NCBI GenBank assembly: GCA_030700105.1 | Contig: JAUYKG010000004.1 | Span: forward strand, 1-44,774 | Direction: 5' to 3' | DNA from: Candidatus Veblenbacteria bacterium | GTDB taxonomy: Bacteria > Patescibacteriota > Patescibacteriia > Veblenbacterales > UBA10138 | Length of the DNA: 44,774 nucleotides | Program-made: the position numbers and the translations under genes | Part shown: piece by piece, positions 9,095-28,960 of the stretch | Layout of the letters: each line of letters starts with the position of its first letter | Position numbering within the stretch: position 1 is the stretch's first letter | The notes under the pieces: model-generated | Database searches by the model: none | Told to the model about the DNA's origin: nothing | The model's input: the letters and a program-made list of their open reading frames with translations, nothing else

Positions 9095-10180
9095 CTAGTT
9101 CAACTCTAAAAATATATCGTCGCAATCATAGGCGTTCACCCCTGCCTCATTAGGTCCAAAAGAGAACACCGCCGGAGATTCAGTGTGAGCCGTTTGACTG
9201 ACGCAGTTTTCGTACGCCCGGTAATCAGGATCAAAGTAGTACGGATTACCCCAGGGGTCGAGAACCCTATCAATGTACGGCCCCTTCCAACTATCTAGGT
9301 CCTCTTGCGCCCACTCGCAACCATCACCCTGGTCGCCAATAACCGGCGAGGGGATAAGGCCGGCTTGGGTGGTGCTCAAATTTACCTCGGGATTGGCCAC
9401 CTCTTCCGACGGGCAACCGTTCGGCCACTTATAGGTATCGGATTCCAATAGCGCTATGGCGTTACGCAGTGAACGCAAATCCGCTTGCGCTCGCGTGGTG
9501 TACGAACGTTGGCGAGCAACGTTCATGGCTACCACGCCCATGGTGGCTAAGACGCCAATGATGCCTATGACCACTAAAACCTCGATGAGCGTGAATCCTA
9601 CTCCGGTGCGTGGCCGTTTATTATTCGGCATAGTTGCCTGTAGTGTACCGTGAGTCAAAGTTTCCGACAATCCACTACCCACACGGTACAGGTACAATTC
9701 CTGTTCATGCGCCTCGGCCCGCCAACCCGGCACATGAAAACCATTGGAAATAACCACCGCTCCGGCTTTAAGTTCGACAGCCAACTTGGCTGCCAGCCTG
9801 GGCATCATGGAACCAATACCGAACACCACTACCAGATCGACTTCCGCCAGGTTGGCGGACCAAAAATCCTTAAGCCGGACCGTGGACCAGCCAAGGCCCT
9901 GGCGCCACAAACGCCAGCGCGACCACCATACCAGTAAGGGGTTCACCTCGTACCCGGTAACCTCAAAACCTGCTTGCGCCAGGGCCGCCACTATCCTTCC
10001 GTCGCCCGAACCCAAGTCAACCGCCCGTGCCCCCGGAGCCAGGGCGGCTAACTTCAGTAGCGTGGCCAGCTTACGACGGGAGGTGGGCAAGAACGGCGCA
10101 CCGCCGAACACCGCCACAGGCAACACCAGGGCGAGAAATACCAAAATCCCCAACGTCGCCCAATGAACGGCGCTGAACAT
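9095..10180 (-). CDS. SAM-dependent methyltransferase-like domain in frame with a type IV pseudopilin (GspG-like)
   Basis: VDLGSGDGRIVAALAQAGFEVTGYEVNP then MPNNKRPRTGVGFTLIEVLVVIGIIGVLATMGVVAMN and DPWGNPYYFDPD; the pilin probably starts at internal ATG ~9631. Confidence 0.8.
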   Translation of the reverse strand: MFSAVHWATLGILVFLALVLPVAVFGGAPFLPTSRRKLATLLKLAALAPGARAVDLGSGDGRIVAALAQAGFEVTGYEVNPLLVWWSRWRLWRQGLGWSTVRLKDFWSANLAEVDLVVVFGIGSMMPRLAAKLAVELKAGAVVISNGFHVPGWRAEAHEQELYLYRVGSGLSETLTHGTLQATMPNNKRPRTGVGFTLIEVLVVIGIIGVLATMGVVAMNVARQRSYTTRAQADLRSLRNAIALLESDTYKWPNGCPSEEVANPEVNLSTTQAGLIPSPVIGDQGDGCEWAQEDLDSWKGPYIDRVLDPWGNPYYFDPDYRAYENCVSQTAHTESPAVFSFGPNEAGVNAYDCDDIFLELN

Positions 10181-10209
10181 ATCACGCTCGGCGGCGAGGG
10201 CTTAGGCTG

Positions 10210-10818
10210 TTATGATTTAAATTTAAAACTTGCCACCACCTGCTCAAAAATATCCTCGGCGCTGGCACTCGCAGCTGGAGTTACCAAAATAAGCCGGAAC
10301 GTTTTACCCGCTGTACTGAACTGGTACTCAACAACCGCTTGCCCATCGCCGCCTGCGTTCTGGCGCTTCCCGGCGTACCGGCTGGCCGACTCTCCTCCCA
10401 CGGTAGCCACGGACTTTGTTAACCCACCCACGGCGTCAGCGTAATCAGCCAACGGCCGTTCCGATACCTCAATTACTATCTGCCCCAGATATTCGCTCCC
10501 CAGACCAGGTAGCGGCTTGGAATCGATAATAAAGTAATCAACAACACCCTCGTTACTCCCGGTAATCTCGTTCTTGATATAGTGACGCCAGTACCAATTG
10601 TCCGGCCGCAAGATGGTGTACCCCTGCACACGGTTCTCGTACGCTACGAATTTTACGCCCACTAAGTCTTCCCCCTCGCCCGAACCTGCCGCAGGCTCGT
10701 TCGTAGCAGGTGAGGTGGATTCTGGGTATACCGGAGCCACAGGTTCGGGCGCACAACGCCCGCCAACAAGAATAAGGGCCGCGCCCAAGGTAACCGCCAA
10801 CAAATAGTGTCGGGACAT
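10210..10818 (-). CDS. Predicted lipoprotein, unknown function
   Basis: Signal peptide with lipobox-like LILVGGRC. Confidence 0.65.
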   Translation of the reverse strand: MSRHYLLAVTLGAALILVGGRCAPEPVAPVYPESTSPATNEPAAGSGEGEDLVGVKFVAYENRVQGYTILRPDNWYWRHYIKNEITGSNEGVVDYFIIDSKPLPGLGSEYLGQIVIEVSERPLADYADAVGGLTKSVATVGGESASRYAGKRQNAGGDGQAVVEYQFSTAGKTFRLILVTPAASASAEDIFEQVVASFKFKS

Positions 10819-10902
10819 ATAGATGATTTCCTTTCTAATTTCCAGCATAGCAGAAAAACAGGGCTAAGGTAAACGGTGCCCCACTCTCCATGCTCACGGC
10901 AG

Positions 10903-13113
10903 CTATGTTAGCTTTACCCGACGCAAGCGCAAGGCGTTCACCACCACAGACACGCTCGAGAAGGCCATGGCCAGAGCGCTCACTTTCGGATTCAGGAAGC
11001 CGAGAGCCGCCACAGGAATTCCAACGGTGTTATACACAAAGGCCCAAAATAAATTCTGCTTAATGTTCGTGAGCGTGGCCCGAGACAGCATAATGGCTTC
11101 GCTGGCTTTATGGAGATCACCCTTCACGAGCACGATATCTCCGGATTCCATGGCAATGTCCGTGCCGGTACCAAGTGCTATGCCCACATCGGCCTGAGCC
11201 AAGGCTGGTGAATCATTAATACCATCCCCCACCATCGCCACCACTTCACCTTGCTCCTGCAGCGCTTTGATTACAGCTACCTTGTCAGCCGGCAGCACTT
11301 CCGCCCTAACCTCCTTAATACCAACCTGCCGCGCGATTTCCTTTGCCACTGGCAAAGTGTCGCCGGTTAACATTATGGTTGTAATACCCATCTTGGTACA
11401 GGCAGCCACCGCCGCGGCTGAGGAAGGCTTTAATTTATCTTGAATGGCAAAAAACCCAAGCAGTACCTCATCCTTGGCCGCCACAACCACAGTGTACCCA
11501 CGCCCGGCGTACTCCTGAATCTTGTCGTTTTGCACCCCCGCCACACCGGCGGCCTGCAAAAAACGCGCGCTGCCAACGCGATACGTGCTACCAGATGAAT
11601 AGCCAACGATGCCGCGACCAGGCTCTGCCTTCACTTCGCTTATCAAGACGCCCCGTGCCAAGCCCTCGCGCTTACCCCACGCCACAATAGCTCCTGCCAA
11701 AGGGTGTTCGCTCTGCGCCTCCAGCGAAATAATTTGCGCCAAGTGCTCCCGCGCCCTTGGCGTAAGCTCCACCCAGGCGGTAACTTCCGGCTCGCCGCGT
11801 GTGAGCGTGCCGGTCTTATCGAACACCATGGCAGTAACCCGCTTTAACTTCTCCAGTACTTCAGCACGCTTGATAAGCACCCCCGCCCGTGCCCCGCGCC
11901 CGGTACCCACCACCAACGAAATAGGCGTCGCCAACCCCAGGGCGCAGGGGCAGGCAATAATGAGCACTGCCACCGTGGCCACAAAAGCGGGCGGCAAAGC
12001 GCCGTCCTTTGCATACCAAACCAGGAAGGTTAGTGCCGCCACTGTGAGAACACCCCACACAAAGTACTGCGACACGCGATCTACCAACTTTTGAATGGGC
12101 GCTTTGGACATTTGCGCTTCCTGCACCAAGCGGACAATATGAGCCAGCATGGTGTCGGCCCCGATTTTCTGCGCCCGCATGACAAAGACGCTACTGCTGT
12201 TGATGGTACCACCAATAACAGCGCCTCCAACCGAACGATCTACCGGCATGCTCTCACCGGTAATCATAGATTCATTCAATGTGGCAGTACCCTCCACAAC
12301 CACTCCATCGGTAGGCACCTGCTCACCCGGCTTCACTACCAACAGATCACCGATGTGAACCTCGGCGGTGGGGATATCCTGCACCTCACCTTCCAAGCCA
12401 CGGCGGTGCGCTATCTTAGGAGCCAACTGCAAGAGCTCACGGATGGCGGACGAGGCCTTGCCTTTGGCTCGCGCTTCCAAGTACCTGCCTAAGAGAATAA
12501 AAGTGGTAATAATTCCGACATCCATGAAGTACTCATCGCCGCCAAGTAAAAACAGGATTACCGCGCCGGAGTACAAAAAGGCCGCACCGACCCCCAGGGC
12601 AACCAGGGTGTCCATATCCGGTCGGCCGCGCAACAAGGCGGGCAACCCAGCTTGAAAAAACTCGCGCCCGGCGTAGAGCACACCCAGGGCTAGGAGCAAC
12701 ATAAGCATATCTGCTGAGGGCACCTCCACCATACCCAGTGCCACGATTGCTAGCGTGAGCACCCCCGCCGCGAGCACTTTGTGAAAACGGCGCGTTATTG
12801 CGCTCTCCCCTTCGACCGCTACGTGAGCGGTATGGTCTGGAACGCCACCACCAGTATCGTGCTCATGTCGGTGTCCGGGATTGTTTACCTCGCTACCGAT
12901 TGGCTCCGCATGATAGCCAGCCTTGGCCACCGCGGCCGTGATGTTCTCCAAATTCAGGACTGTATCATCGTAGCTCACCCTACCTTGCTCTAGCACCAGG
13001 TTCACGCTTACCTCCTGAACCCCACGAAGCGCCTTAAGATCGTCCTCAATATGCGCCACACAGCTGGCACAGTTCATACCATGAATACGTAATTGCACAG
13101 TCTGGATAGCCAT
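10903..13113 (-). CDS. copA: Heavy-metal (copper) translocating P1B-type ATPase
   Basis: GMNCASC HMA motif, TGESMPV, CPCALGLATP, DKTGTLT, GDGINDSPALAQADVG. Confidence 0.95.
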   Translation of the reverse strand: MAIQTVQLRIHGMNCASCVAHIEDDLKALRGVQEVSVNLVLEQGRVSYDDTVLNLENITAAVAKAGYHAEPIGSEVNNPGHRHEHDTGGGVPDHTAHVAVEGESAITRRFHKVLAAGVLTLAIVALGMVEVPSADMLMLLLALGVLYAGREFFQAGLPALLRGRPDMDTLVALGVGAAFLYSGAVILFLLGGDEYFMDVGIITTFILLGRYLEARAKGKASSAIRELLQLAPKIAHRRGLEGEVQDIPTAEVHIGDLLVVKPGEQVPTDGVVVEGTATLNESMITGESMPVDRSVGGAVIGGTINSSSVFVMRAQKIGADTMLAHIVRLVQEAQMSKAPIQKLVDRVSQYFVWGVLTVAALTFLVWYAKDGALPPAFVATVAVLIIACPCALGLATPISLVVGTGRGARAGVLIKRAEVLEKLKRVTAMVFDKTGTLTRGEPEVTAWVELTPRAREHLAQIISLEAQSEHPLAGAIVAWGKREGLARGVLISEVKAEPGRGIVGYSSGSTYRVGSARFLQAAGVAGVQNDKIQEYAGRGYTVVVAAKDEVLLGFFAIQDKLKPSSAAAVAACTKMGITTIMLTGDTLPVAKEIARQVGIKEVRAEVLPADKVAVIKALQEQGEVVAMVGDGINDSPALAQADVGIALGTGTDIAMESGDIVLVKGDLHKASEAIMLSRATLTNIKQNLFWAFVYNTVGIPVAALGFLNPKVSALAMAFSSVSVVVNALRLRRVKLT

Positions 13114-13150
13114 AGGGTATTAGTTTAGGTAGAAATCAAAGAGTTAGCAG

Positions 13151-14548
13151 CTACGGCCCAACGACCGACACGGTAACCGGCGCCGCCCGCGCTTCACCCT
13201 CAGCTGGCAACACGGTAAAGCTACCGGTATACATGCCCATAGCGCAGTGAAAGGGAAGCTGACCAGCGCCTTGGGGTGTGAACTCAACCACGTTCAGGCC
13301 TGGTTTAATGTACTTGGTAAGATTGAGGGCTGGGAACTGTAAAACGCTCTGGCAGCCGTAGGTATTAACACCCTGAATCTCCCAGCGCACCGGCACACCA
13401 GCGCGAACAGTGAACCGATTGGGCGAATAGCCACGCGCCACCACATCCATCGCCACCACCTGTACGCCGTTCTCTAGGCGTACGTTAGGATCGGCAACCT
13501 CTACACCTTGCCGGCTTAGGGTAATTTTAAAGTTCTCCCGCACGGTGGCAGCCTTGGCCGAGAGCCCGGTTAAGGTAAGGCCAAAGCCCAGGTTCATGAA
13601 CCCGAGCGCTACCACGGCCGCACCCGCCACCATGGCCACTGCCTGTTGCCATCGTCCTTTCAGAAACGACGTCACAGCACCCAAACCAACCAAAGCCGGT
13701 AAGGTGCCGAGCGAAAACACCAGCATAGTTAAAGCTCCTGCCGCGGCATCCCCACGCGTTAACACGTAGAGCTGGAGCGCTTGGGTAAACCCGCAGGGTA
13801 GGAAGAATGTACCGGCTCCCAAGAGAAAAGGTGCCCACGGTCGGGGGTTACCGGCGGCATCATGCAAACGGTGCGCAATGAACTTGGGAGGACGCAAGGT
13901 AACGCGGGCCAAGCTGGGGAATAGATTGAGCAAGCGGAAACCAAGGAAGACCATGGCCAAGCTAGCCAGTAAGGTAATTGTGCCGCTCCACACTGGTGAG
14001 AGCGCCAAGGCCGAGCCCAAGAGCCCGACCGCCCCACCCAAAATACCATACGAAAATACGCGGCCGATATTAAAGAATACATGCGGTCTGAACTTTTGCC
14101 AGCCCGTAGCCTCGGGGTGAGCTTGCGCATGAGCGGTGGACAATGCCACCAGCAACCCGCCAGTTACGGCAATGCAACTTGAGACCGCGGCCACCAGGCC
14201 CATCACGAACACCACACCCAAGGAAAGGTCTTCGCCCGTGCTTATATTCGGCACCAGGCTGAACTTACGGAACAGTACATAGGTAGCCACGATAATAAGC
14301 GCGATACCACCCAAACGCCTCAAACTAAACTTGTTCGCGCCCAGACCGACCTGTACCCGATACCCGTGCGGGGCTAAGCGTTCATTAGCAGCTATGAGAT
14401 TGGGTTCATCTTGCCCCCACACCTCAACGTACCCCGACTGGTAGGCCTTCACGCGCGCCACCGATGGATCGTGCTTAAACGCCCGCTCCACCAGTACCTC
14501 GCAGGCCGCGCAATGCATGCCTTGAACTTGATATGTTCGTTTTGGCAT
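13151..14548 (-). CDS. HMA domain + sulfite-exporter-TauE/SafE-like membrane domain + C-terminal cupredoxin-like domain
   Basis: GMHCAACE; membrane domain with LGAGTFFLPCGFTQALQLYVL; C-terminal FTVRAGVPVRWEIQGVNTYGCQSVLQFPALNLTKYIKPGLNVVEFTPQGAGQLPFHCAMGMYTGSFTV. Confidence 0.85.
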   Translation of the reverse strand: MPKRTYQVQGMHCAACEVLVERAFKHDPSVARVKAYQSGYVEVWGQDEPNLIAANERLAPHGYRVQVGLGANKFSLRRLGGIALIIVATYVLFRKFSLVPNISTGEDLSLGVVFVMGLVAAVSSCIAVTGGLLVALSTAHAQAHPEATGWQKFRPHVFFNIGRVFSYGILGGAVGLLGSALALSPVWSGTITLLASLAMVFLGFRLLNLFPSLARVTLRPPKFIAHRLHDAAGNPRPWAPFLLGAGTFFLPCGFTQALQLYVLTRGDAAAGALTMLVFSLGTLPALVGLGAVTSFLKGRWQQAVAMVAGAAVVALGFMNLGFGLTLTGLSAKAATVRENFKITLSRQGVEVADPNVRLENGVQVVAMDVVARGYSPNRFTVRAGVPVRWEIQGVNTYGCQSVLQFPALNLTKYIKPGLNVVEFTPQGAGQLPFHCAMGMYTGSFTVLPAEGEARAAPVTVSVVGP

Positions 14549-14551
14549 AAG

Positions 14552-15004
14552 CTAGTGCTGGTGATTTTTAAATTCTCTGGCGCAACCCGTACCGCAAAAG
14601 TAGTACGTGCGCTTACCAACCTTGACATGGCCGGCGGCTGATACGGGTGTTAAGCGCATGCCGCACATCGGATCCTTCACCACGGTGAGTAGGGCTGTCG
14701 CGCGGGCGGCAGCGCCGCCCATGTTCTGAATTAATACCTCACGTATCGCGTCCGAAGCGCGCATGAAATTCGGGTGTGCCAAACGGTAGTACATCGCCTT
14801 CCCATTCCGCTCTGCTCGCACCACTCCGAACTTCCGCAACACCATAAGGTGTTGCGATAGGTTGGCCTGCCTAAGCCCCAACATACGCTCCATATCGGAA
14901 ACGGTTAGCCGCCCCTGGCGTAGTAGGTGAATAACCTCCAAACGCTTGGAGTTGGCTAGAGCTTTAAGTAACCCGGCATGCTTGCGGAAAACGACTTGAT
15001 ACAT
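14552..15004 (-). CDS. ArsR-family HTH regulator with C-terminal YHS/TRASH-like metal-binding domain
   Basis: LLKALANSKRLEVIHLLRQGRLTVSDMERMLGLRQANLSQHLMVLRKFGVV plus DPMCGMRL...KVGKRTYYFCGTGCAREFKNHQH; ATG at 15004. Confidence 0.85.
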   Translation of the reverse strand: MYQVVFRKHAGLLKALANSKRLEVIHLLRQGRLTVSDMERMLGLRQANLSQHLMVLRKFGVVRAERNGKAMYYRLAHPNFMRASDAIREVLIQNMGGAAARATALLTVVKDPMCGMRLTPVSAAGHVKVGKRTYYFCGTGCAREFKNHQH

Positions 15005-15044
15005 ATTCAATCATCAGAATACATTGCCGAGCCGACAATGTCAA
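15004..15044 (-). promoter_or_regulatory. Promoter TTGACA-N17-TATTCT with overlapping operator (ATATTC-N8-GAATA), upstream of arsR-YHS
   Basis: Minus strand TTGACATTGTCGGCTCGGCAATGTATTCTGATGATTGAATATG. Confidence 0.8.
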
Positions 15045-15135
15045 GACTTGGTCCAAATTAATACTCGTCTTTATCTCACGAAAGAGTTGAGTTGGGGTGG
15101 GAGGTACACGAACTAGGTCGCAACCACCCTATGTA

Positions 15136-15399
15136 TCAGCTGCCCAAGCACTGCTGATATTGATCTGGGTGATGGCTCATATGTTCGCGCCATTCCTCAT
15201 CCGTGTAACCAGCAGGTGTAGCGCATGGATTTGATGGATCCTCGGCCTGCTTCGCCTGGGTATAGTTGAGCGGCTGACCACCAAGTGTACCGAGAGTGTT
15301 CAAATTCCCCCAATTCTGCCACCCCTGGAGTACCCAGACTGTTCCAAGTACGAGCACCAAACTCAGAAGTGAGAATAATATTTTTTCAACCTTTGACAT
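15136..15399 (-). CDS. Small single-TM protein with His/Cys-containing tail, unknown function
   Basis: N-terminal TM; NPCATPAGYTDEEWREHMSHHPDQYQQCLGS. Confidence 0.55.
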   Translation of the reverse strand: MSKVEKILFSLLSLVLVLGTVWVLQGWQNWGNLNTLGTLGGQPLNYTQAKQAEDPSNPCATPAGYTDEEWREHMSHHPDQYQQCLGS

Positions 15400-15404
15400 A
15401 TGAG

Positions 15405-16220
15405 TTAAGGAGATGATGTATTAGGTTGAGCTATTACCGCGCGCTGTAACTGTAGATCGTAGTAAGTACCCATCAACCTTACGCCATCACGCAGAATGTA
15501 CGTGCCGTCATCTTCCTTGCTACCCACCTGCGGCCATACTTCTTGTAACCCTGGGTAAACCCCTAGATCTCCTACTAAGATAATCGTAGGTAGGTAACGG
15601 ATCTTGTACTGCTGAATCAATTCTTGACCCTCAGAACTTTCAGCCGTTACTACCTTATCTTCTGTGACATTCACACCCAGGTTCTTAAGTGCTCCAGCGT
15701 TCCCCGTAACATCATAACAGCCACTGCAGTTTGAGCTAGCGAGGTAGGTAGCACGAAAGATCCCGCGTACCTTATCGCTGGTTACCTCATGGTAAGGGGC
15801 TGGCACAGCGTAGTTAAACTGGCTCTCACCCCGCGTACTGGTCTGCGTTAGGAATTGCTCAAGCCCGGAACTGCGTGAGGTTTCTCCACTTACCACTACT
15901 GCGGGGAAACGCTCCAACTTTTGCTCTGCTAAGTAGCGTTTACCCTCTTCTGTGGTACCGTCAATCTGTTTGATAGTACTAAATACCACCTGTTGCTTCT
16001 GCAATGCATCAAGGAAGGGCTGTGTACTGGTACAGGTGGGGCAGGTACCATCTGCTACCACAACCACGTCCAGCCGAGCGGGACGAACCGACTCTTGCTG
16101 CGTGCTCACACGTGCCACAACCGTAGGCACGTTATTTAGCAAAGTCGCCAACCGTACCCCCGCCAGTACAATAAGTCCGTCGAGCACTGCCACGAGAACT
16201 ACATTAGATAGCCACTTCAT
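15405..16220 (-). CDS. Membrane-anchored protein with two thioredoxin-like regions
   Basis: VVVVADGTCPTCTSTQPFLDAL (CPTC) and FRATYLASSNCSGCYDVTGN (CSGC), each followed by a thioredoxin-like P-containing strand. Confidence 0.65.
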   Translation of the reverse strand: MKWLSNVVLVAVLDGLIVLAGVRLATLLNNVPTVVARVSTQQESVRPARLDVVVVADGTCPTCTSTQPFLDALQKQQVVFSTIKQIDGTTEEGKRYLAEQKLERFPAVVVSGETSRSSGLEQFLTQTSTRGESQFNYAVPAPYHEVTSDKVRGIFRATYLASSNCSGCYDVTGNAGALKNLGVNVTEDKVVTAESSEGQELIQQYKIRYLPTIILVGDLGVYPGLQEVWPQVGSKEDDGTYILRDGVRLMGTYYDLQLQRAVIAQPNTSSP

Positions 16221-16231
16221 ACACGGCGTGT

Positions 16232-16543
16232 TTAACAACCACCCACCTGGGATGGCAGCTCTGTTCCGCCTGAGACTGGCGCTGGGGCGGCGACGGCAGT
16301 GGGAGCACCCGCAGCTGGTAGTGTCTGCCAAGTGCCCAAAGCCTGGTGGAGGCGTGTAAGTTCAATGGTTTCAAACACCGATATAACCAAGAGCATGGCG
16401 AGCGCAGATACGACGAGCGTCTGGCGGTTTACCTTAAATGAGATTACGCCGCTCTCGGCAGGTACCGAGATACTAACTTCTGATTCAACTGAGACCTCTG
16501 GCTGTGGCGTTTGGTCTTCGTGAGTATGGTGATGAGTAATCAT
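16232..16543 (-). CDS. Small single-TM protein ending in ELPSQVGGC
   Basis: ORF; TM segment; C-terminal motif shared with the upstream neighbour. Confidence 0.6.
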   Translation of the reverse strand: MITHHHTHEDQTPQPEVSVESEVSISVPAESGVISFKVNRQTLVVSALAMLLVISVFETIELTRLHQALGTWQTLPAAGAPTAVAAPAPVSGGTELPSQVGGC

Positions 16544-16581
16544 AGGTTTGGTAAATTTAGAGAAAAAGAATTAAGGAATTA

Positions 16582-17223
16582 CTAGCAACCACCTACCTGG
16601 GACGGGAGCGAACCTGATGCGCTGGCAGGCTGAGCGGAAACCGAGCCGCCCTTCTGCGCCGTAGGACCAGGGAAGAAGGCAGCTTTCCATCTATTCACCT
16701 CGCTGAGTATTTCAACATCGGTCATCTCGGGGTACTGCTGTAATAAATAGAGAGCTACCCCTCGCATGGCAGCTGAGTGTGCACAGCCACAAGCGGGTTT
16801 ACCATCTGGAAACACCAGCGTTGTCGCACCGCAGCAAAACTCACAGGAAGTCTGGCTAGCGATAGAAATGTAGCGCTGCTGGAGATCACCAGTTAAGGTG
16901 ATCGCTCCGGAACCACGGTCAAAGTTCTCTAAGATGGGCATGGCGGCGGCGGCATCATCGAAATTCACCCCGAGTTCTGCACCGTAGCGTTCTGGCATAC
17001 CGTGGGGAAGCATATCCGCACCAGCGGTAGTGCTCCCACTATAAGGTGATGCCACAGCGGTCGAACTACTATTTCCCGCGGCTACCGCCGCAGCTGGTAA
17101 TAAATTATGCATTGCTACCATGTGCCATTGATTCAGCAAGAGTAACCCACCGGCCACGAGCAAGAGGATTAGCTCCAGGCTCCGACCAACTGTGTGCTGT
17201 AATAAAGAATATTTCATGGACAT
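16582..17223 (-). CDS. Exported/anchored Cys-rich protein ending in SLPSQVGGC (PCYCGC-like Cys cluster)
   Basis: QTSCEFCCGATTLVFPDGKPACGCAHSAAMRGVALYLL; C-terminal LPSQVGGC. Confidence 0.6.
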   Translation of the reverse strand: MSMKYSLLQHTVGRSLELILLLVAGGLLLLNQWHMVAMHNLLPAAAVAAGNSSSTAVASPYSGSTTAGADMLPHGMPERYGAELGVNFDDAAAAMPILENFDRGSGAITLTGDLQQRYISIASQTSCEFCCGATTLVFPDGKPACGCAHSAAMRGVALYLLQQYPEMTDVEILSEVNRWKAAFFPGPTAQKGGSVSAQPASASGSLPSQVGGC

Positions 17224-17247
17224 AAGTAAGGTAATTAACGATTAGAA

Positions 17248-17775
17248 TTACTCATTGCAGCAATCGACCAGTTTGCTGACAATGTCTTCTTTACTCCAAG
17301 GTATCGCTGTTTTACCAGCGTCATGGATATTGAGCTGCTGTACACCGACCTTTTTTACACCTGATAGATCAATGAGTTTCAAGCGCAAAGCCCAGAACAG
17401 CGAGTACACTTCATAAGCTCTATCGAACATGAGTTTAGCCTCGTCGGTTTTGCCATCCGAATGTAATTTGGTGCCAACCTCCATGAGGCGCATAGTGGCG
17501 GCCAAGAGGTGCTTGGCTATGCACCAGGTTTCGCCCTCATTTTGGGGCACCATGCGCGCCAAAAGTGATTTTCTGATTTCCCTGGTTTGACTAAGCAGAT
17601 CAAGGTAAGTTGGCTTATTTGTTTTCTGTGCCGTAAAGAAGAAATGCTCCTCCAGGCTCACCAGGTTCATGATAGCCAGGCTGAGGTCTTCTTCTGTAGA
17701 TAGATCTACGGTGCCAGAAGCTTTCAGTTTGTTAACTTTTTTGATTAGTTCGCTTTGATTAATAATAGTAGTCAT
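17248..17775 (-). CDS. Hypothetical protein, probably alpha-helical, ending CCNE
   Basis: ORF; start at MTTIIN. Confidence 0.55.
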   Translation of the reverse strand: MTTIINQSELIKKVNKLKASGTVDLSTEEDLSLAIMNLVSLEEHFFFTAQKTNKPTYLDLLSQTREIRKSLLARMVPQNEGETWCIAKHLLAATMRLMEVGTKLHSDGKTDEAKLMFDRAYEVYSLFWALRLKLIDLSGVKKVGVQQLNIHDAGKTAIPWSKEDIVSKLVDCCNE

Positions 17776-17780
17776 AAGTT

Positions 17781-18569
17781 CTACATATAAAAGATAAACA
17801 GACCAAGCAGTACGGTAATTACTCCGCCCCATAGCCTGACCGCATTAAGATTATCTTGTTTCCAAGCCTGCAGTTTTTCCAGCACTGTACGCTGGCCAGC
17901 GAGCAGCAATACAACCACCAAGGGCGACACAAACAGTAAGTTGTACCACAGGAGGTAACCGATTCCGCGCAACTTAGTTTGAGCATCATGGAGCAATCCC
18001 AACACCATGAGGTACGGTCCGCCGGTGCATGGGAACTCGCACAAGCCTACGAGAATCCCGAGGAGGAATACGGCTGGAATCGACGTTTTATGCATCAGTT
18101 CGGCTATCTTGCTGTGGGCCGCACGCGGGATTTGGAGCTTCAATGGAAAGGCTGGGAAAAAGTAGTTAATCAGGTTAATGACGCCTAGACCGATGAGTAA
18201 CAGCGCGCCGAGCCTGCCCATGAAGTGCGGGGTATTGAAGAGGTGGAGAGCCTGTAGGATCCCCAAACCAATAGCAAGGTAAGCCGCGAAGATACCGAAC
18301 AAGTAGGTAGCGCCAATCTGCAGAATACGTACGCGGCTAAAGGTACCTAGGGAAAACAAGAAGGCTATGGTGAGAAGTAGGATGGAGAAGGCACACGGAT
18401 TGATGCTATCAATGAGCGCGGCCAACGAGACCAGGGGAAATAGCTTTGTTCCGCCGGCTGATAGGTTCCAAATAACGGCCGTAGCGCTGCTGGAAGACTT
18501 AAGGAACAGCAGAATGGCGAAGACGACGAGCGCGAGGGCTATGAATAGTGTGAGCTTTCGGTACTTCAT
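17781..18569 (-). CDS. CcdA/DsbD-like transmembrane thiol-redox protein
   Basis: AALIDSINPCAFSILLLTIAFLFSLG and LLGILVGLCEFPCTGGPYLMVLGLL. Confidence 0.8.
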   Translation of the reverse strand: MKYRKLTLFIALALVVFAILLFLKSSSSATAVIWNLSAGGTKLFPLVSLAALIDSINPCAFSILLLTIAFLFSLGTFSRVRILQIGATYLFGIFAAYLAIGLGILQALHLFNTPHFMGRLGALLLIGLGVINLINYFFPAFPLKLQIPRAAHSKIAELMHKTSIPAVFLLGILVGLCEFPCTGGPYLMVLGLLHDAQTKLRGIGYLLWYNLLFVSPLVVVLLLAGQRTVLEKLQAWKQDNLNAVRLWGGVITVLLGLFIFYM

Positions 18570-18573
18570 ACCG

Positions 18574-19110
18574 CTACGGCGTAACCTGGGCTTTAATTTC
18601 GAAGACGAGCTTCTTGTCGTCCGTTGTTTCCACGAACACGTTGCGGGCGATAGACCCGACTCCCGCTGGGCCATGAGCCGCCGGGTCAAACGTTACTTCG
18701 ACTTGCGCTTCTTGGCCGGCAGCTAGCTCCTCGCTGATGGTTGGAATGGGACCCCCGTGGCCCTCCATACTGAACGGGCCAACACGCCTATCCCCCAAGA
18801 CCAACGTAGCGCTCGTGCACATACACGAGGTGTAGAACTTACGCACGGTGATAGAGGCTGGCGTAGAGTTATTGATCTTGAAGAATTTAGTTACTTTACC
18901 ATTCGCCATAGAGATGGTGCCAAAATCATACGACATCTCCGGCGCTACTAAGGCGCTGTCCGAAACTGTGGACTTCTGGCTTTGGGCAGAGGGTGGCGAA
19001 AAGGCTATAACCGCGCCCACTGCCAGGAGCATAACAGCGACTACGCCAACAACCATCCACGTTGTGCTCCTGTAATTACTCGCTGAGCGATGATGTGATC
19101 GATGCGTCAT
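18574..19110 (-). CDS. DUF1573-like membrane-anchored protein
   Basis: YDFGTISMANGKVTKFFKINNSTPASITVRKFYTSCMCTSA...VEVTFDPAAH. Confidence 0.65.
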   Translation of the reverse strand: MTHRSHHRSASNYRSTTWMVVGVVAVMLLAVGAVIAFSPPSAQSQKSTVSDSALVAPEMSYDFGTISMANGKVTKFFKINNSTPASITVRKFYTSCMCTSATLVLGDRRVGPFSMEGHGGPIPTISEELAAGQEAQVEVTFDPAAHGPAGVGSIARNVFVETTDDKKLVFEIKAQVTP

Positions 19111-19130
19111 AGGTTATTCTAATAAATACT

Positions 19131-19156
19131 AAAAAGCACCACCGTATCGTGGCGCT
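19131..19156 (-). terminator. Possible intrinsic terminator/attenuator inside the redox cluster
   Basis: Minus strand AGC-G-CCAC gatacg GTGG-T-GCT followed by TTTTT. Confidence 0.55.
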
Positions 19157-19190
19157 GCGGGAACCTATGCCTCAAGCTAGGTACAGTAAC

Positions 19191-19661
19191 CTAGGTAATC
19201 GATACAGGTAAAACCCTCAGCACCACTAGGCCAATTGGTGCTGGGTCGCGCTTCTCATGAAGTATGAGCCACTGCCCTATCTTCTCGGGTAAAACATAAA
19301 GATGAGCCATGAACTTCTGCAATCGCAAACGGAGCCGGGACAGCGCATCAGGCTCGCTTCCTCTCCACTTAAACCTAAACCATAGTACGACCGCTACAAC
19401 GAGAAAGAGGAGTAACTGGCTAACGTACGTTGGAACGGCTTGTGAAATCGCCTGGAGTACTCCCATATGAACACGCAAGCACTCTGTAATATCAGCCAGA
19501 GCCAAGCAGGGCGGCGCGGCGGCGCTTAAGCCAACACAACCATGTCGTTCCGTAGTATTGTGGCCCATGTACCAGATACTTACTAAGCCAACGCCCAATA
19601 GCCCAACTAGGAGGACGATACCGATAATCGGCTTAAGCTTTGAAAAAACTCGTACGCTCAT
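19191..19661 (-). CDS. Hypothetical Cys-containing membrane protein
   Basis: ORF; TM segments; HGCVG...PPCLALADITECL. Confidence 0.5.
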   Translation of the reverse strand: MSVRVFSKLKPIIGIVLLVGLLGVGLVSIWYMGHNTTERHGCVGLSAAAPPCLALADITECLRVHMGVLQAISQAVPTYVSQLLLFLVVAVVLWFRFKWRGSEPDALSRLRLRLQKFMAHLYVLPEKIGQWLILHEKRDPAPIGLVVLRVLPVSIT

Positions 19662-19673
19662 ATAAATACCATA

Positions 19674-20153
19674 TCACACGGTAAGTAGCTGGCCATGATC
19701 TACATTCGGTACGTGTTTTCTGAAACTAGCAAGCTGACTCACGAGATAAATGATGCCAACAAGATTAAACAGTATGCCTACCCAAGACAGCTGACGCTGG
19801 TACTGGCCAATAAAACTAACGACACCAACAATCCCCAGCAGCGACGCCACATTCGCCAAGTAATGGGCGCAGCAAGCGATCATAGCGGCAGTGGAAGTAG
19901 TGCCTGAGGTTACTACCACCCTACCATTGGTGTGCTGGGCGGCTATTCGCTGTTTAAGATAAGCATAAAGACCAACTTGAATGCCAAAACCTGCCGCCAG
20001 ACTGACTACAAAGTACCAAGTGGAGATAAATTGACGCTCGACAAACGTCCACCCCGATACGGCAACCACCACCACTGCATAGATAGTAAGCAGGGCAGTT
20101 GCGGCCAACAGGCCTAACACAGTAGCAATTAAGATTTGTTTTTTGTAAGACAT
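19674..20153 (-). CDS. Hypothetical membrane protein with CCAHY motif
   Basis: ORF; four or more TM segments; AAMIACCAHYLANVASL. Confidence 0.55.
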   Translation of the reverse strand: MSYKKQILIATVLGLLAATALLTIYAVVVVAVSGWTFVERQFISTWYFVVSLAAGFGIQVGLYAYLKQRIAAQHTNGRVVVTSGTTSTAAMIACCAHYLANVASLLGIVGVVSFIGQYQRQLSWVGILFNLVGIIYLVSQLASFRKHVPNVDHGQLLTV

Positions 20154-20182
20154 GGCATTACCGTGCGAACGATAGGGTATTA

Positions 20183-20530
20183 CTAGCAGCAGCCGTGCTT
20201 ATGACCACCTTTCGTAGCGTCAGAATTTACCACAGGCTGCTGATTACTGGGATAAGCTTGACTGGCGGTAGAGGGAAACACTGGCTGATTGCCAGCCACA
20301 CCTGCGCCGGCGTTACCCTGATGCCCATAGCTACCGTGACCGCGCATAGCAAAAGCATGCATGCCTAACATGACCACCCCAGCGCCAAGTAGCCACCAAA
20401 CCGAATTATGACCCTCTCCTCCCCCACTGAACACCAAAAAAATAATGGGAACAAAACATGCCAGCATCATCATCCACATTATCTTGGAATCGTGACCGCC
20501 GGAACTAATGTTGTTGCCGTGATTGTGCAT
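20183..20530 (-). CDS. Small His-rich membrane protein (DUF2933-like), C-terminal GGHKHGCC
   Basis: MHNHGNNISSGGHDSKIMWMMMLACFVPIIFLVF; metal-ligand-rich tail. Confidence 0.5.
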   Translation of the reverse strand: MHNHGNNISSGGHDSKIMWMMMLACFVPIIFLVFSGGGEGHNSVWWLLGAGVVMLGMHAFAMRGHGSYGHQGNAGAGVAGNQPVFPSTASQAYPSNQQPVVNSDATKGGHKHGCC

Positions 20531-20553
20531 ATGAAAAATTTGAAGATGCCTGG

Positions 20554-20823
20554 CTACTGCTTTTCAGGCTTAATCAAGCTTGAGTTATGCATCCAAACCA
20601 TGTACGAACCGAACAACCACGCAAACACGAATACGTAGGAAGCGCCCAGGAACACGCTGCTGAGATTGATCCAGGTAAAACCTGGCAGCGTTTCCAAGAG
20701 GGCATGGTGGAGCTCAGTACCACGCGCACTCCGCCACGGCAGAAAACCGCCCAAAAGGCAGAGGACGTACAATACCTCACCACCAAGCACACACAACCAA
20801 CGGTATCGTTTAAGCAACAACAT
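20554..20823 (-). CDS. Small membrane protein, first gene of the redox cluster
   Basis: ORF with ATG at 20823; TM segments. Confidence 0.5.
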   Translation of the reverse strand: MLLLKRYRWLCVLGGEVLYVLCLLGGFLPWRSARGTELHHALLETLPGFTWINLSSVFLGASYVFVFAWLFGSYMVWMHNSSLIKPEKQ

Positions 20824-20866
20824 AGTCAATCAAAATTAAGGGTTAACTTAGCAAATCTTTCTCTTA

Positions 20867-20910
20867 ACATATTCAATTATTAGAATATATTAATTCAAGC
20901 AGGCTGTCAA
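20867..20910 (-). promoter_or_regulatory. Promoter TTGACA-N17-TATTCT with operator ATATTC-N8-GAATAT
   Basis: Minus strand TTGACAGCCTGCTTGAATTAATATATTCTAATAATTGAATATG; near-identical to the arsR-YHS operator. Confidence 0.8.
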
Positions 20911-20933
20911 GGGGCTATGAACGATTCCCCACC

Positions 20934-22445
20934 CTAACCCAAGCTGTGCCGCAGAACACCTCCTTGGGCAATCAAGCGGCTCAGCTGGTGCGGATGCTTG
21001 AGGCTCGCAGCTACGCGCCGGGCAAGGATTGCGTGCTCCTGTTCTACTACCGTACGCGGCCCTAAAGTAATGTTTAGGAGACGTGCAGCATACTCAATCT
21101 CCCGTACTAAACGCTTAAGCGGTGCACAGCGCCGCGCCAGCATACTCACTGACTCGCGGCAGTAAAACCGGGCGGCGCAAGAAATATCGCGATGCAAATT
21201 GCCGTAGTAACGCTCCAGTGTTACGAGTTCAGCTGGGCTAAAAGATTGTAGTGCGCGCCCCAAACCAATGAACTCGGGAGGTAAACCCAAACTGTAACAA
21301 GCCGCAGCAAAGGTGATAGCGCGCGGCAAAGCCTTCTTACCTAACTGGCGGCTGTATGATAGTAAACCAACGTGTAGTCTGCGCTCACGCCGACTTGGCA
21401 CAGCAGCAAAAGCTGGCGCCAATAGGGGTAGTAAGGGCGCCAAAGAACTCACGTAAGCGCGGCTAGCCTTGTCCACAATTCTATCCAGGTGCGGCCGGTC
21501 TGCCGAGGCTATCGGCATGGCTTTGGTTTTTGGCAAAAGACGGACCAATTCTTGCAACGCGGCCCGCACGCGGGGCAGAGGAAAATCATACCTAAAAGCT
21601 GATTGAATTGTGACAGTATGAACACCGGCGTACTGAGTAGCAAATTGTGGCACGGTAAAAGGGGTAAGCCCACCACGGAACGGTAAGCTACCAACTCCGA
21701 TCATGGGATACACCGGGATGTGGTGTTCACGGGAAAATTTTGCTAGGTCAGCCAGCGCGACTCGCGTGGCCAACACCGAAGCCACGAGCCCTGAAACTAA
21801 AGCTGGGTCGCTCCGCGCCAAAAAGACTCGCAGGTATGGCGGAGGCTGTTTGAATAAACGAACGTGCCTGCGTATGTATTCACGGAGCAGTTCAGGAATG
21901 CGTAGTTGGTCTAATACGCCCTCCACCAGCGGAATTACCCCCAGATAAGGTATATTATGATGTTCGCGGTGCGTAAAGGTGCGACGTTTAAAGCTAACCA
22001 GGTCGCGGTAGGCATGTTGAATGTAAACCAACTGGTCAGCAGTGCGTGTCATGGGCAAGATCACCTCTATAACCGGCCGGGCGGCCAACCGCAAGTCCCG
22101 CGCCAAATCCTCCGCGGTAACAATAGCCATCATGGCGCGCAAAAGACTGTACCCCTTCTCCTCCCACACGTTCGGTATGCGAAAGGTCAAGAAAATATCG
22201 CGCCCCAACCGCCGACGACGAAACAGGTTATAAGTCCGCGTAAGCAGCTTATCTACCACCGCCTCGTCCGCATCCTTACCTTCCCAATCCCACATGAACT
22301 CATCCACCCCGAGGTCACGGAAAGCCGACACGCACTCGGTTACCTCCTCCTGTACGCTCACAAAACCATCGCCATCGCGCTCCCAATAAGGCGCACCGGC
22401 GTTATCCGGGTGCTGCGTAGCGGTAGTAACAGGGATGCGACGCAT
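20934..22445 (-). CDS. ppcA: Archaeal-type phosphoenolpyruvate carboxylase
   Basis: MRRIPVTTATQHPDNAGAPYW, VDEFMWDWEGKDADEAVVDKL, PMIGVGSLPFRGGL. Confidence 0.88.
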   Translation of the reverse strand: MRRIPVTTATQHPDNAGAPYWERDGDGFVSVQEEVTECVSAFRDLGVDEFMWDWEGKDADEAVVDKLLTRTYNLFRRRRLGRDIFLTFRIPNVWEEKGYSLLRAMMAIVTAEDLARDLRLAARPVIEVILPMTRTADQLVYIQHAYRDLVSFKRRTFTHREHHNIPYLGVIPLVEGVLDQLRIPELLREYIRRHVRLFKQPPPYLRVFLARSDPALVSGLVASVLATRVALADLAKFSREHHIPVYPMIGVGSLPFRGGLTPFTVPQFATQYAGVHTVTIQSAFRYDFPLPRVRAALQELVRLLPKTKAMPIASADRPHLDRIVDKASRAYVSSLAPLLPLLAPAFAAVPSRRERRLHVGLLSYSRQLGKKALPRAITFAAACYSLGLPPEFIGLGRALQSFSPAELVTLERYYGNLHRDISCAARFYCRESVSMLARRCAPLKRLVREIEYAARLLNITLGPRTVVEQEHAILARRVAASLKHPHQLSRLIAQGGVLRHSLG

Positions 22446-22452
22446 GAATGTG

Positions 22453-23604
22453 TTAGACACGGTAGCTACGGATAAAACGTACCAAGCGCTTTGTGCCAAG
22501 CGAAAGCTGAATACGCGAAGCTGCTAAGGAGAGCCGCACACACCCAGGACTCCGGAAAGCCGAACCCGGCACCAGCATAACTCGCTCCGCCTGGATGAGG
22601 CGCCGGCAGAACCGCTCATCATCCTTATCGCACTTGGCAATGTTGAGAAAAAGGTAAAACGCACCCCGCGGCTGCACCCACGATACTTCCGGCAAGCCGG
22701 CCAAACCCTTAAGCACTAAGTTCAGACGGGCGGCCAATTCGGTACAAAAAGCCTGAGTGGGCTCGCCGCGTGCGAGGGCTGCCAAAGCCGCGTATTGCGC
22801 CGGCAAAGAAGTATTACCGCTCGTGTGGCCCTGGAGCTTGTCCAAGGCGGCAATGAGCTCAGGCTGGGCCAATACGTAACCTATGCGCCAGCCAGTGAGC
22901 GCTTGGCTTTTAGAAAACCCATTCACCACCACGGTTGAAGTCCCAAACAGTTTAACCGACGAGGGTAGCCTAACCCACCCGAACGTTAGTGAACGATACA
23001 CGTCGTCGGCTATCACCCGCACGTTTGTGCGCTTTAATCGCCGCGCCAACTGCCGCAACCTCGTAGTACTGAACACAGCACCTGTGGGATTGTGCGGAGA
23101 GTTTATAATAATGGCGCGCGTACGCGGGTGTATGGCACGGCCGATGGCTTCTACGTCCAGGTCATACCGGCTGTTGAGCGGAACGAATACCGGCTTGGCG
23201 CCAGCTAGGCGCACCATGTGCTCATACGAAACCCAGGCTGGCACGGGTATAATAACCTCGTCGCCTCGGCGAACCACAATGCGCAACATCTCGACCAAAC
23301 CAGATTTGCTACCGGCGGTTACGCCCACCTGCCCTGAGGTAAAAACCCTGCCGTACGTATGGCTGGCCGCCCGCGCAATCCTTTGCCTAAGCTTAAGTAA
23401 TCCGAGCGTGGGGGTGTATTGGTTCTCGCTCAAGTGCTTGGCTACCGCTGTGCGTATGTAGCTGGGCGTGGAAAAATCAAGCTCCCCCGCCGTTAAATTG
23501 ATCACATTAATGCCAGCGGCCTGCAGCCGCTTGGCCTCGGTGTTTACTCGTAGGGTAGCGCTCTCTTCTAACCTGGCGATTTCGGGGTTAATTACTACGC
23601 GCAT
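22453..23604 (-). CDS. Class I/II PLP-dependent aminotransferase (aspartate aminotransferase-like)
   Basis: NLTAGELDFSTP, INSPHNPTGAVFS, VNGFSKSQALTGWRIGYV. Confidence 0.9.
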   Translation of the reverse strand: MRVVINPEIARLEESATLRVNTEAKRLQAAGINVINLTAGELDFSTPSYIRTAVAKHLSENQYTPTLGLLKLRQRIARAASHTYGRVFTSGQVGVTAGSKSGLVEMLRIVVRRGDEVIIPVPAWVSYEHMVRLAGAKPVFVPLNSRYDLDVEAIGRAIHPRTRAIIINSPHNPTGAVFSTTRLRQLARRLKRTNVRVIADDVYRSLTFGWVRLPSSVKLFGTSTVVVNGFSKSQALTGWRIGYVLAQPELIAALDKLQGHTSGNTSLPAQYAALAALARGEPTQAFCTELAARLNLVLKGLAGLPEVSWVQPRGAFYLFLNIAKCDKDDERFCRRLIQAERVMLVPGSAFRSPGCVRLSLAASRIQLSLGTKRLVRFIRSYRV

Positions 23605-24686: not shown

Positions 24687-26917
24687 AATTTACTACTTAT
24701 ATAGGTGAGTGCGGGGACACTTGCACTCTGCAACGAATAGAAAGCTAAATGGTGGCTCAAAACCGATTCAGCCCCTTGATTCTTGTTTCGACCCGAGGGC
24801 GTTAATCCGTCAAAAATACCACCTGATCGACTATCAATGAGCCTTTGGTGTAATATATTGTCTCCATCGTACCAGGCGAAGGCTTTTTCAGCTAGGCTAC
24901 GGTACTTTTCATCTTTCGTAACACGGTGCGCAGCTACGCAGGCTTCCACCACCGCATCAGCTTCCACTGGTTGCTGATCAAATATGGCCTTAAGTTTGCC
25001 ACGGAAATACCAACCATTACAGCCAATGAACGAGAAGCACCCTCGCTCTTGGTCGAAGAGCTCGTGCATTAGCCAATCTAAAGATTGCTGGCCTACGGCA
25101 CGCATATCACTATTATTACAAACGCGCGCGGCCGTTAAGAGAGCCTGCGGCAAGCGTGCACTGTCATAGGTAAGATAATTTTCAAACCACTGCCAATTAT
25201 TGTTAGCTACCGAGGTAAACATGGTAGTAAGCTTTTTAGCCATATCATCAACGATTGCCTTAAGGTTATGCCCTAAACCCGGCACCGCCACCTGATTTGC
25301 TTCCAACACACAGAGTCCAAGCAATGCATAACTCACTGTCCGGGGTGAACTCAGATTAAGCAAGTGTTGGTACATCTTGGTGAGTAGCTGAATGCCCCTC
25401 TTATATAGGAGCGGGCTAGGTCGGACAGCAACCAGGCAGCTTACTGCCCAAAAAGCTTTCCCCCACCAATCACCGGTACCCGGCTCCCCCTGCCAATCGC
25501 CGATGGCTGACCGATCATTGTACAAAAGTCCATTCTGCTCGGCTTGCAGAATGAATGTAAGGTAGCAGCGAACTAGAAAACGGTCCCCGCGACAGAGCGC
25601 TACAATGAGCGCTTTCGCGTTATCATCAACGGTATAGCCTTCGCTTTCCTGAGGAATTCTAAACGCACCGTGCTCAAGTATACCCCACCGGGTGGTTAAC
25701 GTTCGAACGTAATCGAGCGTAGGTGGAACAACGAATGAAATCGGAGAAGATGGAGGCTGCGCTAACACAGAGGTAAAGATCTCAAGGTAGTTAAGCGCCA
25801 CACGGTGCCAAGTCATAAGACGGCCCTGCGCGTACGCTCGTTGCTCAAGCAAATGCCTCTTCTCAGCCTGTCGCAAAAGTACGAGGAGTGCCTGGCTTAA
25901 GGCCGAGCTATTCCGGAAGGGCACCAAAATACCCCTGCCGCCTCGCAGCATTTCGCGCGCATAAAAATACGAAGTCGATATACAAACCTTACCAGCACCC
26001 ACTGCGTAGGCCAGTGAACCAGAGGCTGCCTGTTCAGGGTTTAAGTAGGGCGTAACGTAGTAATCACTGGCCTGAACATAGCGCACCAGCTCAGCTAGCG
26101 AGAGGTACCTATCAATAAACTGAACCGATGATTGCAGCCCGAGTTCTTGTACTAACCGTTCTAGTTTCGCACGGTAACGTTCCCCCTCCTCACGGCGTAC
26201 GTTGGGGTGGGTTTCACCAATTACCAAGTACAGAAAGTTCGGGAATTTTTCCACCACGGGAGGTAAAGCCGCAATGGCATATTCTATACCCTTAGATTCA
26301 CTTAACAGATTAATACTCGACATTACTATGTGCCCCTCAAGCTTAAGCTCTGGTTTTGCCACATCGGGAGATTGGCGCGGGAAATCTGGCACACCGTGGT
26401 GTATGACCGCCACCTTACTCGGGTCCACACCATACTCACGCCGCAAAAGATCCGCCGCCGCCCGCAGCATAACCACAACCGCACCGGCGCGCTGGCACAG
26501 GTAGTTCATAATTTCTCGCTGGTGCGTTGCAGGGTTAGATAGCACCGTGTGAAACACAACCACACACGGTTTTTTTAACTTTTCCAAAAATTTTACGACC
26601 AATTCACCGTCTTTCCCGCCCCATATGCCGAACTCGTGCTGCACGACGACCAAATCAACGTTGCTCCTGTTGAGGTAACGCAAAACACGGTCATAATCTG
26701 GCCACTCCTGCTGGCGAATACGGTACTTGACTTCCCATGGATACCCCAATTGCTCACCCTCGGAGTTATCCAGCGCAATTACCTCTGCCAGGTGTTCTGG
26801 ATTAAGCAGGTTAAGGGCGTTGGTTAGGTCCTTAGTGAAAGTTGCAATTCCACATTTGCGTGGGATGTATGTAGAAATGTAAACAACACGGGGACTTGTA
26901 AGTTTTACCCGAGCCAT
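24680..26917 (-). CDS. GT4 glycosyltransferase fused to (alpha/alpha) toroid glycosidase-like C-terminal domain
   Basis: YISTYIPRKCGIATFTKDLTNAL...VVQHEFGIWGG...; C-terminal half GYTVDDNAKALIVAL...LTYDSARLPQALLTAARV. Confidence 0.82.
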   Translation of the reverse strand: MARVKLTSPRVVYISTYIPRKCGIATFTKDLTNALNLLNPEHLAEVIALDNSEGEQLGYPWEVKYRIRQQEWPDYDRVLRYLNRSNVDLVVVQHEFGIWGGKDGELVVKFLEKLKKPCVVVFHTVLSNPATHQREIMNYLCQRAGAVVVMLRAAADLLRREYGVDPSKVAVIHHGVPDFPRQSPDVAKPELKLEGHIVMSSINLLSESKGIEYAIAALPPVVEKFPNFLYLVIGETHPNVRREEGERYRAKLERLVQELGLQSSVQFIDRYLSLAELVRYVQASDYYVTPYLNPEQAASGSLAYAVGAGKVCISTSYFYAREMLRGGRGILVPFRNSSALSQALLVLLRQAEKRHLLEQRAYAQGRLMTWHRVALNYLEIFTSVLAQPPSSPISFVVPPTLDYVRTLTTRWGILEHGAFRIPQESEGYTVDDNAKALIVALCRGDRFLVRCYLTFILQAEQNGLLYNDRSAIGDWQGEPGTGDWWGKAFWAVSCLVAVRPSPLLYKRGIQLLTKMYQHLLNLSSPRTVSYALLGLCVLEANQVAVPGLGHNLKAIVDDMAKKLTTMFTSVANNNWQWFENYLTYDSARLPQALLTAARVCNNSDMRAVGQQSLDWLMHELFDQERGCFSFIGCNGWYFRGKLKAIFDQQPVEADAVVEACVAAHRVTKDEKYRSLAEKAFAWYDGDNILHQRLIDSRSGGIFDGLTPSGRNKNQGAESVLSHHLAFYSLQSASVPALTYISSKLW

Positions 26918-26970
26918 GGAGAAAATGGTTTACTGCAAACGGTTACTAATGCCATTGGATAAGTATAACA

Positions 26971-26999
26971 AAAATCTCTCAATAAATCACTGAGGGATT
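26971..26999 (-). terminator. Hairpin terminator
   Basis: AATCTCTCA/TGAGGGATT with T tract on minus strand. Confidence 0.6.
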
Positions 27000-27001
27000 G
27001 T

Positions 27002-27040
27002 TGGCGGGCCTTGTGGAACGATGTTCGAACAATTGTTGAA
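27002..27040 (-). repeat. tRNA-3'-end-like repeat, copy A
   Basis: TGGCGGGCCTTGTGGAACGATGTTCGAACAATTGTTGAA (plus strand); 36/39 identical to copy C. Confidence 0.85.
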
Positions 27041-27049
27041 TTCTATAAC

Positions 27050-27622: not shown

Positions 27623-27639
27623 GATTTTAGTATACCAAA

Positions 27640-27661
27640 AACTGTCCGAAAATGGACAGTT
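27640..27661 (-). terminator. Hairpin terminator followed by TTTTTGGTATACT
   Basis: AACTGTCC/GGACAGTT. Confidence 0.7.
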
Positions 27662-27668
27662 TCAGATT

Positions 27669-27704
27669 CGGGTCTTATGGAACGATGTTCAAACAATATT
27701 AGAA
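27669..27704 (-). repeat. tRNA-3'-end-like repeat, copy B (diverged)
   Basis: CGGGTCTTATGGAACGATGTTCAAACAATATTAGAA, ~30/36 to copy A. Confidence 0.7.
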
Positions 27705-27734
27705 CACAATTTGGTTGAAGGTGGTGGAGGATGA

Positions 27735-28031: not shown

Positions 28032-28081
28032 AATTTGGAAGCTTTAATAATTATTTACTAAGATCAATTATATACCCAAAA

Positions 28082-28100
28082 CCGCTCCTATGTGGAGCGG
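28082..28100 (-). terminator. Hairpin terminator
   Basis: CCGCTCC/GGAGCGG with TTTTGGG on minus strand. Confidence 0.7.
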
Positions 28101-28109
28101 CTAAAATGC

Positions 28110-28952: not shown

Positions 28953-28960
28953 GAAAATGC

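Follow-up and report, generated by a model that had tools for sequence, protein, structure and literature searches.

What controls the copper and thiol-redox genes gathered in one part of a contig from Candidatus Veblenbacteria bacterium (JAUYKG010000004.1, positions 1 to 44,774; the window), and are they controlled together? We analysed an ArsR-type regulator carrying a YHS domain (ArsR-YHS), encoded beside copA, together with two closely similar promoter-operator sites, one preceding its own gene and the other preceding a block of eleven genes. Our reading is that ArsR-YHS probably represses a regulon for Cu(I) efflux and extracytoplasmic thiol repair, and that copper relieves this repression. 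The regulator, its neighbours and the two sites are the following, with ORF standing for open reading frame and HTH for helix-turn-helix:

10903..13113, minus strand: copA, a P1B-type Cu ATPase with one HMA domain and a CPC motif
13151..14548, minus strand: HMA - DsbD_2/SafE - cupredoxin membrane protein, 465 residues (Pfam DsbD_2 6e-36, Cupredoxin_1 3e-7)
14552..15004, minus strand: arsR-YHS regulator, 150 residues from ATG 15004 (the ORF opens also at TTG 15010), with HTH_5 and YHS
15002..15044, minus strand: promoter-operator 1, TTGACA-N17-TATTCT; its palindrome GTATTC-N8-GAATAT overlaps the -10 element and reaches the arsR-YHS start codon
20868..20910, minus strand: promoter-operator 2, TTGACA-N17-TATTCT; perfect ATATTC-N8-GAATAT at 20869-20888; precedes the eleven-gene block

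Two matching promoter-operators and their conservation

An earlier note on this DNA had described two nearly identical minus-strand promoter layouts in the cluster, and both proved exact. The sequence TTGACA-N17-TATTCT-NATNATTGAATATG occurs in exactly two copies in the 811-kb assembly, before arsR-YHS (15002-15044) and before the block (20868-20910), with TTGACA and TATTCT exactly 17 nucleotides apart at each. Both minus-strand copies of the 20-base motif TATTCTNATNATTGAATATG, at 15002-15021 and 20868-20887, are exact, and the assembly has no other; 100 dinucleotide shuffles of the window yielded no match to it, even when up to three mismatches were allowed. Among promoter-like sites ranked on the minus strand of 10000-22600, these two scored highest. 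The inverted repeat that the note had placed over the -10 element is present at both sites, although ATATTC-N8-GAATAT describes it better than the GAATA(T/C) ending proposed there; it is perfect at operator 2 and has one mismatch at operator 1. Site 1 terminates on the arsR-YHS start codon (GAATATG), and since TATTCT as the -10 would put the transcript start a few nucleotides before the ATG, we predict a near-leaderless arsR-YHS message.

A class-wide search of 380 genomes returned 10 with a full ArsR-YHS, and a phylum-wide search of 379 genomes added 16 from other classes, giving 26 in total. Around each start, the region from 250 nucleotides before to 30 nucleotides after was scored against the 12 fixed positions of ATATTC-N8-GAATAT. 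The palindrome scored 12/12 in 19 of the 26, 11/12 in six and 10/12 in one, whereas a single YHS-less ArsR control out of 28 reached 10/12, with a match about 250 nucleotides away beside a tRNA-like stretch. The conservation upstream of orthologous clusters on which the earlier note had staked its proposal is thus found at every ArsR-YHS locus. The co-occurrence of motif and regulator that it had raised also holds: class-wide, a longer motif was present in all ten ArsR-YHS carriers and in 27 of the 370 non-carriers. A count of perfect palindromes over all 26 carriers gave about 29 places, compared with one for a reversed control. The shuffles, the reversed-pattern controls and the YHS-less controls exclude a chance origin of the sites.

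Several further matches were rejected as regulon members (G and L numbers are our labels for genomes and loci). Of the non-carrier matches whose surroundings were read, most fall within ORFs and none has a window-gene relative next to it. Among the carriers, copies inside ORFs were set aside in G161, G529 (the distant copy) and G599, as were the palindromes of G000:C31, G542 and G067, which have no copper genes nearby. A site at L052 13670, before a block of the same kind in G081, has a different core sequence and is terminator-like.

Genome G006 has a second operator before a DoxX gene. In its locus L037 (5875-6457), a perfect operator is followed by an arsR-like 5' remnant, in which ATG has become ATA, and by the DoxX gene, ahead of an intact arsR-YHS; the arrangement suggests a duplication of the operator region. 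Locus L038 of the same genome carries, at the end of the block, a YHS-less ArsR with 62% identity over 78 residues to the window regulator (161-499) and, beside a second copA, a free-standing YHS-like protein of 64 residues (10176-10370).

A predicted persulfide-sensor-type repressor with a YHS domain

The fusion recognised in the earlier note was borne out. The regulator has an ArsR winged-helix domain (Pfam HTH_5, E 1e-10; NCBIfam NF033788, 79 bits against a cut-off of 55) and a C-terminal YHS domain, matched at Pfam E 5e-5 with a score under the Pfam gathering score. Its AlphaFold model (pLDDT, the predicted local distance difference test, 84.7) adopts the ArsR fold, with Rv0081, CzrA and SqrR as the closest structures, and by sequence the solved proteins nearest to its HTH are SqrR (E 9e-12) and BigR (6e-11). 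The half-site known for SqrR and YgaV, ATTC-N8-GAAT (PMC9774250), recurs at the 26 loci, where 10-12 of the 12 bases of ATATTC-N8-GAATAT are matched, and this fits a similar recognition helix. The expectation of an ArsR/SmtB-type repressor site is therefore supported and can be refined, in that both DNA-binding domain and half-site belong to the SqrR/BigR subfamily. It follows that the type of site is not new; the sensor is.

Because that subfamily senses persulfides, the same repressor and operators could be imagined to answer reactive sulfur (persulfide or polysulfide), or general thiol oxidation at the YHS cysteines, with copA induced through the chemical link between sulfide and copper. 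The residue aligned with the SqrR/BigR sensing cysteine, however, is H26 of the window protein, no member of the 10-sequence ArsR-YHS alignment behind our invariant-residue calls carries a Cys at that position, and cysteine is absent from the whole HTH part of the window protein. Classical ArsR metal-sensor ligands (alpha3N, alpha5 Cys/His) are likewise missing: that alignment has no invariant HTH Cys, only H77 being invariant. What is kept, in all 26 proteins, is a metal-ligand set that includes an Asp, D111/C114/C137/C141 (D-x2-C-x22-C-x3-C; spacing 0, 3, 26, 30), which follows the YHS/TRASH pattern D/C-x2-C ... C-x3-C. We consider reactive sulfur an unlikely inducer, given also the link of these genes to copA.

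The M. phlei adenylyl cyclase, an enzyme switched on by Cu2+, has a YHS domain with the same D-C-C-C set at identical spacing; D178/C181/C204/C208 are its proposed copper ligands, themselves assigned by analogy with TRASH domains (PMC4626032). By the same analogy, D111, C114, C137 and C141 are the proposed copper ligands of ArsR-YHS; the sensor domain is fused to a cyclase in the former protein and to a repressor in the latter. A plasmid collection returned matches to the ArsR part only and never to the fusion, and a scan of genome contigs with the single regulator protein matched only an acidobacterial YHS fragment.

Copper genes and the eleven-gene block

Directly linked genes point to copper. 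The ATPase encoded by copA belongs to the copper subfamily (TIGR01511, 579 bits against a cut-off of 397; CPC in the sequence). The HMA-SafE-cupredoxin target named in the earlier note is present, its composition being restated as HMA, DsbD_2 and cupredoxin, and relatives of it adjoin many arsR-YHS orthologs. The fetched neighbourhood contains copA for 22 of the 26 arsR-YHS genes and either copA or the HMA-SafE gene for 25, whereas copA was found at none of 27 YHS-less ArsR control loci. Where copA is missing, the contig ends after the HMA-SafE gene (G006, G019), or the neighbourhood holds HMA-SafE and a CopZ-like gene (G724). The sensor could instead answer a soft metal other than copper, Hg(II), Ag(I) or Cd(II) for instance, since archaeal mer operons encode an ArsR regulator and, as a protein of its own, TRASH (PMC3466566), and the TRASH domain of L24e binds Cd(II) (PMC4626032). 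With an ATPase of the Cu subfamily and HMA, CopZ-like and cupredoxin partners, we hold this to be quite improbable; merA or merB was not noted, though no search was aimed at them.

Behind the second promoter, the earlier note had counted a block of ten genes. The block is there, with eleven closely packed ORFs:

20554..20823, minus strand: g1, membrane protein of about 90 residues; no relatives among the loci fetched
20183..20530, minus strand: g2, 115 residues, His/Cys-rich, C-terminus GGHKHGCC; no relatives among the loci fetched
19674..20153, minus strand: g3, membrane protein of 159 residues; relative within the arsR-YHS/copA operon of G537
19191..19661, minus strand: g4, membrane protein of 156 residues; relative with 55% identity in the G006 block
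18574..19110, minus strand: g5, DUF1573 protein (Pfam 5e-10)
17781..18569, minus strand: g6, CcdA/DsbD-like membrane protein; best Pfam match SfLAP 6e-8, under the cut-off
17248..17775, minus strand: g7, 175 residues; 90% identical in G006
16582..17223, minus strand: g8, 213 residues, membrane-anchored, Cys-rich; C-terminus QVGGC
16232..16543, minus strand: g9, 103 residues, His-rich N-terminus, one transmembrane stretch; C-terminus QVGGC
15405..16220, minus strand: g10, anchored; two CxxC motifs of the thioredoxin type
15136..15399, minus strand: g11, 87 residues; conserved tail C..PxGYTxxxWxEHMxHHPDxYxxCL

That the block is a target of the regulator, as the note had proposed, is supported by its relatives. 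A DUF1573 gene lies directly 3' of arsR-YHS in G519, G529, G537 and G598, and G060 has arsR-YHS, HMA-SafE, HMA-DsbA, DUF1573, CcdA-like, CopZ, cupredoxin and copA genes in a single row. G449 provides an independent instance of two operators: next to arsR-YHS, a DUF1573-CcdA pair is preceded, at 20 nucleotides, by a perfect palindrome of its own. The operons of G529, G537 and G598 also encode a remote homolog of the g8 family (hhalign 93% probability), in which RPCCGNxTxFPDCNHGMA is present and the C-terminus reads SCGA.

Such arrangements bear on whether ArsR-YHS regulates only itself, the upstream site being a recent functionless duplication and the block being read from elsewhere, for example from the phosphoenolpyruvate carboxylase gene (PEPcase_2, 20934-22499, minus strand). 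This gene ends 24 nucleotides before the -35 of operator 2, so that read-through into the block is possible, and a 14-codon ORF (MLRERFAKLTLNFD; 20827-20870, minus strand) opens at the ATG closing operator 2 and stops just ahead of g1; it may encode a leader peptide, or be what remains of an arsR promoter that was duplicated. Few genomes, moreover, have a second site ahead of block genes. Site 2, however, is the perfect palindrome, site 1 having the mismatch, and its TTGACA-N17 is intact. With G449 and the block genes inside arsR-YHS operons of several lineages added to this, we regard pure autoregulation as very improbable.

The g8 family, whose members match no Pfam or NCBIfam model, has invariant C127, C130, C131, C145, C147 and H149 among 10 aligned members, nine of which end in GGC; the g8 structure model had no match in the PDB, and the plasmid collection contained no g8. 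For g9 there are relatives in G006 and G081, and G083 and G035 encode comparable [MQ]VGGC proteins; C60/C63 and C165/C168 of g10 are invariant among seven relatives. The short C-terminal [MQ]VGGC tail is common to the otherwise dissimilar anchored g8 and g9, in the window and also in L114, L115, L116, L117, L118, L119 and L120; it may serve for binding metal, or as a sorting or attachment signal.

Among 239 genomes searched across the phylum, eight more proved to have g8 relatives; seven of their neighbourhoods were read, and five of these also contain g10 relatives. Neighbours of this g8/g10 core are CsoR-type repressors (G485, G493, G494), BlaI/CopY-type repressors (G083, G035), copA (G152, G213) and DUF411 (G152). 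The module therefore keeps copper company under any regulator, which also speaks against reactive sulfur as the inducer. A copper role at the BlaI/CopY-type loci is presumed, since that call is a Pfam Penicillinase_R match.

Some observations weigh against copper-relieved control of both operons. Besides the YHS score below the gathering score and the lack of relatives for g1 and g2, a second operator precedes block genes only in G000 and G449; the G081 block has no such site, and the promoter of the G006 block falls off the contig. G687 has only a CcdA-like gene beside arsR-YHS, with no copA within about 8-10 kb. Rhodanese domains in some members of the wider regulon (G519, G598) would suit sulfur chemistry too, as would the rhodanese-like stretch fused to the g11 relative of G081 and the DoxX gene behind the operator in G006.

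Elsewhere in the window, a methyltransferase-like part and one resembling a type IV pseudopilin (N_methyl, T2SSG) share one ORF (9095-10180, minus strand); in G007 the pseudopilin part is a separate gene of 185 residues. The G+C content of 26000-29000 is about 0.41-0.44, compared with about 0.52 window-wide.

Proposed mechanism and relation to known systems

The architecture of the regulator, the conservation of its operator, the linkage to copA and block genes and the invariant ligand set form the sequence-level footing for the following mechanism. An ArsR-YHS dimer would place its winged-helix domains on ATATTC-N8-GAATAT, over the -10 and start region, and keep off both its own operon (arsR-YHS, HMA-SafE-cupredoxin, copA) and the neighbouring eleven-gene block. 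When cytosolic Cu(I) rises, the YHS domain would bind it through D111, C114, C137 and C141 and the repressor would leave the DNA, switching on both operons at once. Copper would then be exported by CopA and the HMA-SafE-cupredoxin protein, while the CcdA-like g6 may supply g10, the two-thioredoxin protein, and further thiol proteins outside the cytoplasm with electrons. In this scheme g10 would reduce or isomerise copper-damaged disulfides, and the Cys-rich anchored g8 and g9 would bind copper outside. Strong conservation ties only the regulator, the operator and copA, the roles given to the small membrane proteins are guesses, and Ag/Hg or reactive sulfur could act as inducer instead.

ArsR repressors, YHS copper domains and archaeal HTH-TRASH copper regulators such as CopR (PMC7830388) are already known. 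ArsR-YHS shares its closest HTH and its half-site with the persulfide sensors SqrR, BigR and YgaV, but it lacks their sensing cysteine pair, has an added C-terminal YHS metal domain and is linked to copA. Like archaeal CopR and CopT, it combines a DNA-binding N-terminus with a Cys-rich TRASH-type C-terminus in a gene adjoining copA (PMC7830388), yet it is bacterial, with an ArsR-type HTH in place of the Lrp-like one of P. furiosus CopR, D-C-C-C ligands and a 20-bp operator over the -10. The proteobacterial Scs proteins are likewise copper-linked extracytoplasmic thiol-disulfide proteins, a thioredoxin-like isomerase with a membrane partner (PMC5524982); the block, compared with them by function only, uses the two-CxxC g10, the CcdA-like g6, DUF1573 and g8/g9 instead.

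A literature search, restricted for the most part to papers not under subscription, returned no paper with both 'ArsR' and 'YHS domain' and no account of the fusion or its regulon. The comparisons above point to a widespread type of bacterial copper sensor that seems not to have been described. We lean, with some reserve, towards a broader view in which ArsR-YHS is an undescribed copper-sensor class found in several classes of the phylum, built from a YHS domain on a persulfide-sensor-type ArsR. It would command a new extracytoplasmic copper-defence module around the g8 family (CxxCC...CGCAH...[MQ]VGGC), which would be wired to CsoR-type, BlaI/CopY-type or ArsR-YHS regulators.

Little is known about metal sensing in such reduced-genome bacteria, whose genomes span about 0.5-1.7 Mb across the phylum. 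The regulator and operator form a pair with a clear 20-bp target, so that the regulon can be predicted in many genomes and a simple binding test is feasible. A Cys-rich protein family outside Pfam and NCBIfam is repeatedly tied here to copper genes, and the fusion suggests a route by which the DNA-binding part of a sulfur sensor may be re-used with a new metal domain.

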